Assembly: GCA_029262065.1 (NCBI GenBank)
Contig: JAJDAC010000015.1
Coordinates: 1 to 64,000, forward strand
DNA length: 64,000 nucleotides
From: Candidatus Krumholzibacteriota bacterium
Lineage (GTDB): Bacteria > Krumholzibacteriota > Krumholzibacteriia > JAJRXK01
Direction: 5' to 3'
Shown here: positions 17,672 to 19,947 of the stretch, one piece after another
Position numbering within the stretch: the first letter of the stretch is position 1
How the letters are laid out: every line of letters begins with the position of its first letter
Translations under genes and position numbers: made by a program
The notes under the pieces: generated by a model
The model's database searches: none
What the model was told of the DNA's origin: nothing
What the model saw: the letters and a program-made list of their open reading frames with translations, nothing else

Positions 17672-18148
17672 TTACTTGGACTCGGTGTGCGCCGCTTCCA
17701 TCTTCTTCATTTCATGGATGGTGGTCTTGGCGATCTTCTTCAGCTGCATCGCGACCGCGGGGTCGGATGAAGTCATGAGGGCGATCTTGCCACCAATGGT
17801 TTCGAAGTCCTGCGTCTGGACCTTGCCACTCTTCATGACGTCCATGTAACTCGTGCAGAAATTGCACAGGTGGGCTTCCGCGCCACCCATGATCTTCGCA
17901 CCTTCAGCTTCCATATTGCTGTGGACCGCGGCGAACTTGTCCTTAAAGTCTTCTTCCACCACGGTGACCATCATCCAACCGTTTTCGAGAACGTGGTTTT
18001 CCCAACCAACGTTCTCCATGAAGCCGGGCTCGGCGGCCATGTGCTTGCACATCTGGCAATTGACCATGTCGAACCAGGGGCCGTCGCCAGCGACGGCGAA
18101 CGTCGGTAAGGCCATTACTACGGCCATCATCACAAGGATCTTCTTCAC
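17672..18148 (-). CDS. Exported protein with two CxxC motifs
   Basis: The 158-residue product has a signal peptide (MKKILVMMAVVMALPTFAVA). The mature protein carries CQMC near residue 32 and CNFC near residue 95, plus a conserved DMVNC context, and is otherwise a Met-rich helical protein. The two CxxC pairs suggest disulfide redox or metal binding in the periplasm. The family is not recognised. It is transcribed divergently from the DUF3179 selenoprotein gene, which may indicate a shared redox role. Confidence 0.7.
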   Translation of the reverse strand: MKKILVMMAVVMALPTFAVAGDGPWFDMVNCQMCKHMAAEPGFMENVGWENHVLENGWMMVTVVEEDFKDKFAAVHSNMEAEGAKIMGGAEAHLCNFCTSYMDVMKSGKVQTQDFETIGGKIALMTSSDPAVAMQLKKIAKTTIHEMKKMEAAHTESK

Positions 18149-18433: not shown

Positions 18434-19138
18434 ATGCGCGGACGGATCCTGCTCGTTTGCTGCGCCCTGACCGTCGTCGCCTGCTCGGACAACACAATCG
18501 AGTTCCTGGGCGATTCCCAGTTCGTCGATGAGAACGACAACCGCATCGTACTCACCGACATGAACGGTATCGACTACGACATCACCCACGCGGTCACACA
18601 CTACGGGTTCGCGGCCCAGAAGTTCAGAGGCGGGGCCGGCTGGCAACGCTTCTGGCCGTTCGTGGGTCCGCGGTTCTCGGAACCCGGAGACGGCGACTAC
18701 CCCGCGCCATTCGACCCCATGGAAGTCATCGGTGTGGAATTGAACGGCGAATGCCGGGCCTACGCCTTGGCCGACCTGGACGGAATCGAGATCGTCGACG
18801 AAGTGTTTGGAGACGCGCACGTCGCGGTGGGTTGGTGACCACCGGCTGAACTGGCTGTCGTGTACAGCCGCCAGATCGACGGAAACATCCTGACCCTCGC
18901 CAGCTCCAGCTTTACCTACGACAAGATCTTCGTGCTGGTGGACTACGAAACCCAGAGCCTGTGGTACCACATGGCCCCGGGCCTCGTTTGTATCTCCGGT
19001 CACTACCAGGACCGGATTCTGCCCGAAATTCCGCACGAGCAAACCACCTGGGCCCAATGGCGCGACGGTCACCCCGAGACCTGGTTCTTCGATGCCCGCG
19101 CCAGTGCTCGCTACGAACCGTCCGTCGACAATCCTTGA
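18434..19138 (+). CDS. DUF3179-family lipoprotein selenoprotein (Sec135)
   Basis: Read through the TGA at 18836-18838, this is a 234-residue lipoprotein (lipobox VVAC). Both halves are DUF3179-like: VIGVELNGECRAYAL and IEIVDEVFGDAHVAVGW before the TGA; VVYSRQIDGNILTL and VLVDYETQSLW after it. Ordinary members have V-A-V-T-Y-C-P-L-C at this point; here it is V-A-V-G-W-U-P-P-A, so the TGA falls exactly on the first Cys and the second Cys is Ala. A SECIS-like hairpin begins 15 nt downstream. The gene's terminal TGA overlaps the ATG of the next gene. DUF3179 has no settled function; a periplasmic redox or metal-binding role is inference. Confidence 0.8.
18853..18869 (+). promoter_or_regulatory. 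SECIS-like hairpin of the DUF3179 gene
   Basis: GGCTGT-CGTGT-ACAGCC forms a perfect 6-bp stem with a 5-nt loop containing G at its second position. The loop starts 21 nt after the TGA, the same geometry as in the other three TGA-interrupted genes of the window. Confidence 0.7.
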
Positions 19139-19947
19139 TGCTACTTCGCCTGGCCATTTGCACCGCGCTGATGCTGGCGGGACCGATCGACCGCGCGCTC
19201 GCTGGCGCCTGGACCCAGCCTGCGCGCGGTTCATACCTGAAGCTGAGTTACGCCTACTCCACGGCCGGCCGAGTACTCAACGGACAATCAGGAATTGGGT
19301 ACGACAGTCACGCGCTCTATTTCTACGGCGAGGTTGGCGTTACCAACCAACTCACCCTGATCGCCAGCGTGCCCGTGCTTCGCCGCGCGGTCAACCAGGT
19401 CGACGCTATCCGGGGCACGACCCGCGGCGCGTTCTCGGGCGACATCGAGCCACGAGTTCGCTACGGCATCTTGCAGCGACAGTGGGCGATTGCGATCGAA
19501 GCGGGAGGAAAGATTCCCGCCGGGTATGAAACGATCCACGACCCTCCGTTTGGCAACGGCGAAACCGACTTCGACCTGGGTATAGCCATCGGCCGTTCGC
19601 TGTTTCCACTCCCCGCCTACTTCAGCTTGAACTTCACCCATCGCTGGCGCGGCGGCGATTTCATCGACGAGTTTCGCGGTGCGATCGAGGCCGGCTGGTG
19701 GCTACGCGCCCGGTGGATGCTGAAGGGCATGGCCGACGGCGTCACCGCCGTGCGCACAACCGGAAGCAACAGCGACCTGTTTGGGTTCCCCCTGGATCAA
19801 GAGCAACTACGTGTCGGCGGCGCCGTGGTGGTACGCCTGTTGGATCGCATGGAACTGGACCTTACGTGGTTGCAAACCATTGGTGGCGAGAACGTCCTGC
19901 GCAGCTCGGAACTATTCTTGGGAGTTGCCCTGAAATCCGGCCAGTAG
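19138..19947 (+). CDS. Outer-membrane beta-barrel protein
   Basis: The 269-residue product has a signal peptide (MLLRLAICTALMLAG, cut near ALAGA). The mature protein is built of alternating amphipathic beta strands with aromatic girdles (SYLKLSYAYS, LYFYGEVGVTNQLTLIA, YFSLNFTHRW), the pattern of small transporter-type barrels of the phenol-degradation meta-pathway/porin group. Its ATG overlaps the TGA stop of the DUF3179 selenoprotein (TGATG), so the pair is translationally coupled. The two may work together at the envelope; the transported compound is unknown. Confidence 0.7.
   Translation: MLLRLAICTALMLAGPIDRALAGAWTQPARGSYLKLSYAYSTAGRVLNGQSGIGYDSHALYFYGEVGVTNQLTLIASVPVLRRAVNQVDAIRGTTRGAFSGDIEPRVRYGILQRQWAIAIEAGGKIPAGYETIHDPPFGNGETDFDLGIAIGRSLFPLPAYFSLNFTHRWRGGDFIDEFRGAIEAGWWLRARWMLKGMADGVTAVRTTGSNSDLFGFPLDQEQLRVGGAVVVRLLDRMELDLTWLQTIGGENVLRSSELFLGVALKSGQ

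Follow-up and report, generated by a model that had tools for sequence, protein, structure and literature searches.

A predicted lipoprotein gene at positions 18434..19138 (+) of the window, the 64,000-nucleotide stretch of Candidatus Krumholzibacteriota DNA analysed here, appears to be broken by a stop codon, and the locus raises the question of whether this codon ends a protein or is read as selenocysteine (Sec), and of what such a residue would do in DUF3179, a family to which the literature that names it assigns no function. The reading frame runs from an ATG at 18434 through an in-frame TGA at 18836..18838 (+) to a terminal TGA at 19136-19138, and comprises 234 amino acids with a single PF11376-type repeat. 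Read through the internal TGA, the product matches PF11376 (DUF3179) across the codon with 84.9 bits, against a Pfam gathering cut-off of 27 bits, while the parts upstream and downstream of the TGA score 23.4 and 41.1 bits when searched separately. The gene boundaries and the single DUF3179 gene proposed in the first-pass annotation are thus confirmed, as is its description of the motif: the TGA provides the first residue, Sec135, of a U-P-P-A sequence with Ala at position 4. NCBIfam models returned no match to this protein or to its paralogue in the same genome, and a sequence search of solved structures with the window protein gave no significant match.

The homologue sample covered 80 genomes belonging to the phylum of the source genome and a second set of 82 genomes, from the phylum to which a KSB1 contig (L048) led; 84 N-terminal-type DUF3179 domains from the two phyla were aligned. 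The codon at motif position 1 is TGA in 66 of these domains, TGC or TGT in 10, and a Ser, His or Asn codon in the remaining 8; neither TAA nor TAG occurs at this column in any of the 84, and no aligned DUF3179 Sec form carries a second in-frame TGA within the domain. The ten Cys domains are the homologues aligning across the TGA that the first-pass annotation had suggested looking for, and the arrangement that it had named as contrary evidence, a second half encoded as a separate gene with its own start, was not seen among homologues, which are continuous over the codon. On the tree, the Cys-containing branch nearest to the window clade is L145, with motif CILA. A true stop, be it through pseudogene formation, a sequencing error or the presence of two separate genes, could draw on an in-frame GTG at 18860 in the second half, but the presence of this TGA in 66 of the homologous domains, the Cys found at that codon in ten others, the covariation of the SECIS hairpin described below and a complete Sec machinery in the genome make it exceedingly improbable. 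The selenoprotein reading is well supported by the 84 aligned domains that cross the codon, and on this comparative evidence the UGA of the window gene is almost certainly read as Sec.

The hairpin proposed to direct this decoding lies at 18852..18870 (+), starting 13 nt after the TGA, and pairs 18852-18858 with 18864-18870 around a 5-nt loop, CGTGT (18859-18863), that begins 20 nt after the TGA. It had been annotated as a SECIS-like hairpin of 6 bp; the hairpin is real, but its stem measures 7 bp when a U-G pair is counted. Published limits for bacterial SECIS elements (bSECIS) comprise a loop of 3-9 nt with an early G, a stem of 4-16 bp, 16-37 nt to the loop and a minimum free energy of at most -7.5 (PMC13188914), and the window hairpin falls within all of them (loop CGUGU of 5 nt, 7-bp stem, 20 nt to the loop, -11.3 kcal/mol). 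Taken alone, its energy is unremarkable (z -1.3 to -1.7), and the mean z against synonymous-codon shuffles is -0.74 in Sec forms, which does not set them apart from non-Sec forms, so that hairpin energy is uninformative here. The element stands out from chance because its pairs covary across homologues. Standard pairs fill 94.6% of the pair cells in 38 Sec homologues, with both-sided changes in six of the seven stem pairs (41 such cells), whereas sliding the pairing partner by 1-3 columns leaves 23-55% paired; in 10 non-Sec homologues only 38.6% of cells are paired, lower than in their own shuffles. A wider set gives the same picture, with stem pairing of 89% in 65 Sec sequences versus 36% in 17 non-Sec sequences. 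A divergent UGVC Sec form (L047, genome G024) was excluded from the 38 sequences because its hairpin is shifted, with an offset of about two bases. The UPLA Sec forms, the paralogue of the source genome included, show one mismatch in the stem, and an Rfam search of the hairpin region returned no SECIS match.

The source genome encodes SelA, SelB and SelD together with tRNA-Sec, the latter detected by both Infernal and ARAGORN. Across the phylum, SelB is matched in 77 of 80 genomes (73 above the cut-off) and SelA in 78 of 80, and with the machinery nearly universal its presence alone cannot separate Sec from non-Sec forms. The SelD gene at G000:C48:88900-89832 (L080) has an in-frame TGA of its own, so that this selenophosphate synthetase is probably a selenoprotein too. 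The domains in which Ser, His or Asn replaces the first Cys (L028-L036, L074-L077, L089-L093) lie in long open reading frames. This branch appears to be redox-dead or repurposed, despite the Sec machinery in those genomes, and it shows that the DUF3179 fold can persist without a redox residue, a point against the redox reading set out below.

Upstream of the motif, the protein begins with a putative signal peptide (18434..18487, +) in which a probable lipobox, VVAC, with Cys17 as its cysteine, can be recognized by eye. In relatives, too, the N-terminus holds a hydrophobic stretch that closes with Cys (WIGC, VAGC and LTAC, for instance), and the window protein may be lipidated. Its PF11376 match covers only profile positions 24-150, out of a full two-repeat length of 292 positions. 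In L143, L144, L147, L149 and L157 the family profile matches twice inside single open reading frames, the second match lacking the redox motif, so that full-length DUF3179 is a tandem duplication, of which the window protein corresponds to one repeat. The window protein is hence a half-length relative of the N-terminal repeat, belonging to a single-repeat clade, rather than a full-length DUF3179 protein. In the second genome set, single-repeat DUF3179 Sec genes also occur as tandem pairs (L127, L152). The single-repeat Sec clade presents DUF3179 in minimal form. Taken together, the apparently stop-broken lipoprotein gene very probably encodes a Sec-containing DUF3179 protein. In the model that we favor, its product would be a secreted lipoprotein built from one DUF3179 repeat, with the in-frame UGA decoded by SelB and tRNA-Sec under the direction of the downstream hairpin.

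The chemistry of Sec135 is a separate matter. The first-pass annotation had reasoned that, one Cys of the motif being lost, the first position must do the chemistry. In favor of this view, position 4 is freely variable (Cys, Val, Ala, Ile, Gln, Glu or Thr across the family), with 17 inferred changes on the tree versus 6 at position 1. The UPPA of the window is nested in a UPLV/UPLI clade, placing the loss of the motif Cys long before the window gene, and position-4 variation is old and common to the whole DUF3179 family, not special to this gene. The inference is weakened, however, by the homologues whose position 1 is Ser, His or Asn and by a second cysteine. Cys186 (codon 18989..18991, +; VCISG) lies 51 residues past Sec135, and 44 of the 64 Sec forms have Cys in this column, versus 1 of the 18 non-Sec forms. 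By motif, an equivalent Cys is present in 25/25 UPLV/UPLI/UPPA and 19/24 UPLC/UPIC forms, and in 0/10 UPLA and 0/3 UPLQ/UPLE forms. A Cys some 50 residues beyond Sec is therefore retained in every single-repeat Sec form that has Val, Ile or Ala at position 4, allowing for a two-residue redox pair, and the single lost Cys is no proof of monothiol chemistry. Common descent confounds the association of this Cys with Sec, although on the tree a Cys at this column appears in the single-repeat clade as well as in part of the two-repeat UPLC clade.

Two readings of the active site follow. Sec135 may act alone, in a one-Cys type of chemistry with an external thiol or a partner protein as resolver, as would suit the UPLA, UPLQ, UPLE and UPLT Sec forms, the same-genome paralogue among them, which have neither the second motif Cys nor a Cys186 equivalent; their existence implies that Cys186 is not required family-wide. 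This is a serious possibility, if short of an even chance, and it sits poorly with the retention of Cys186 in all UPLV/UPLI/UPPA forms of the window protein's own clade. In the reading adopted here, the protein would be an envelope thiol/selenol oxidoreductase with Sec135 as its redox-active residue, which would pair with Cys186 through a transient selenenylsulfide, Cys186 taking the place of the missing fourth residue of CPxC. A redox role for Sec135 and DUF3179 is likely, whereas the conservation pattern points only tentatively to Cys186 as the alternative resolving Cys.

The start of the following gene (19138..19947, +) overlaps the DUF3179 stop by one base. Its product, a predicted secreted protein, has no match in Pfam or NCBIfam, and the term beta-barrel-like accordingly describes its look only (a signal peptide and alternating amphipathic strands, judged by eye). 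At 16 distinct places a homologue of this neighbor lies next to a DUF3179 gene, versus at none of 48 control loci drawn from searches for other genes. The association holds in both genome sets and for Sec and Cys forms of DUF3179, with the genes on the same strand or convergent; the convergent cases mean that the two are not always co-transcribed. The DUF3179 protein may well work with this neighbor, although we would put a functional partnership at about an even chance. On the other side, divergent from the DUF3179 gene, 17672-18148 (-) encodes a small secreted protein in which two CxxC motifs occur (NCQMC, CNFC) and for which neither a Pfam or NCBIfam match nor a homologue adjoining other DUF3179 genes was found.

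Structure prediction offers a lead on the fold. AlphaFold2 models of the window protein and its paralogue (pLDDT 88.5 and 91.7, respectively) were compared with known structures using VIA-align, and the first 17 rows for the one and the first 33 for the other are all Rieske domains, whose Z reaches 6.3 and 7.6, respectively; the top matches align 92 residues each (rmsd 2.7 at Z 6.3 and 3.3 at Z 7.6), and the first unrelated rows fall to Z 3.5 and 3.6. Foldseek found no match in the PDB with E <= 0.001. Homology by sequence was considered and rejected, the hhalign score of 12.2 being no better than that of column-shuffled controls (11.2 +/- 2.2), and a weak match between CPxx and the Rieske CPH disappeared once the alignment was deepened and does not agree in register with the structural ranges. 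With Z below 8, no Foldseek match and no profile relation, the likeness is a fold lead and not membership, and Rieske ancestry of DUF3179 is doubtful on these models. Sec or Cys at position 135 might instead bind a metal or cofactor on a Rieske-like scaffold, as the exclusively Rieske top ranks of both models could suggest, yet the CxH...CxxH cluster ligands are absent from the window protein, and the profile comparison equals its shuffled controls. Moreover, the aligned ranges pass over no more than about five residues of the ferredoxin chain, so that Sec135 falls close to the turn linking strands 3 and 4, away from the first cluster Cys (position 46 in the carbazole ferredoxin) and off the cluster-ligand position. 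Metal or cofactor binding is therefore quite unlikely, and we retain thiol/selenol redox chemistry as the preferred role. The broadest version of this proposal, in which a cluster-free Rieske-fold domain became an envelope selenol/thiol oxidoreductase that serves a beta-barrel partner and whose resolving Cys shifted between position 4 and a CxxG site about 50 residues on, is speculative and, taken whole, rather improbable. For the preferred model, sequence comparison establishes the conservation of the Sec codon, of Cys186 and of the neighbor, the SECIS covariation and the decoding machinery, with the redox role, the Cys186 pairing, the partnership and lipidation as inferences. The minimal single-repeat form, the candidate Sec-Cys pair, the covarying SECIS and the conserved neighbor make a redox role for DUF3179 directly testable.

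Comparison with related systems places the window gene as a variant within a known category. The DUF3179 repeat resembles Rieske ferredoxin domains (e.g., 2de7, 2qpz) in its predicted fold (Z 6-8), but it lacks both the cluster-ligand motif and sequence support. Its paralogue in the same genome (L001, G000:C53:28215-29090), a second DUF3179 gene with motif UPLA, carries its in-frame TGA at the equivalent column and likewise has Ala at position 4, but differs in its two-repeat length, in the lack of a Cys186 equivalent and in its single SECIS stem mismatch. Two reviews (PMC9312934, PMC13188914) tabulate DUF3179 among the bacterial selenoprotein families, give its motif as UxxC/T and refer the listing to Zhang and Gladyshev 2007. 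The window protein belongs to the same Pfam family, PF11376, and has Sec at the same motif position, but it is a single repeat with UPPA and a Cys about 50 residues downstream, whereas UxxC/T is the only motif given in the reviews. Beyond the existing listing, it adds a single-repeat clade, an old, family-wide variation at position 4 and a Cys retained about 50 residues after Sec.
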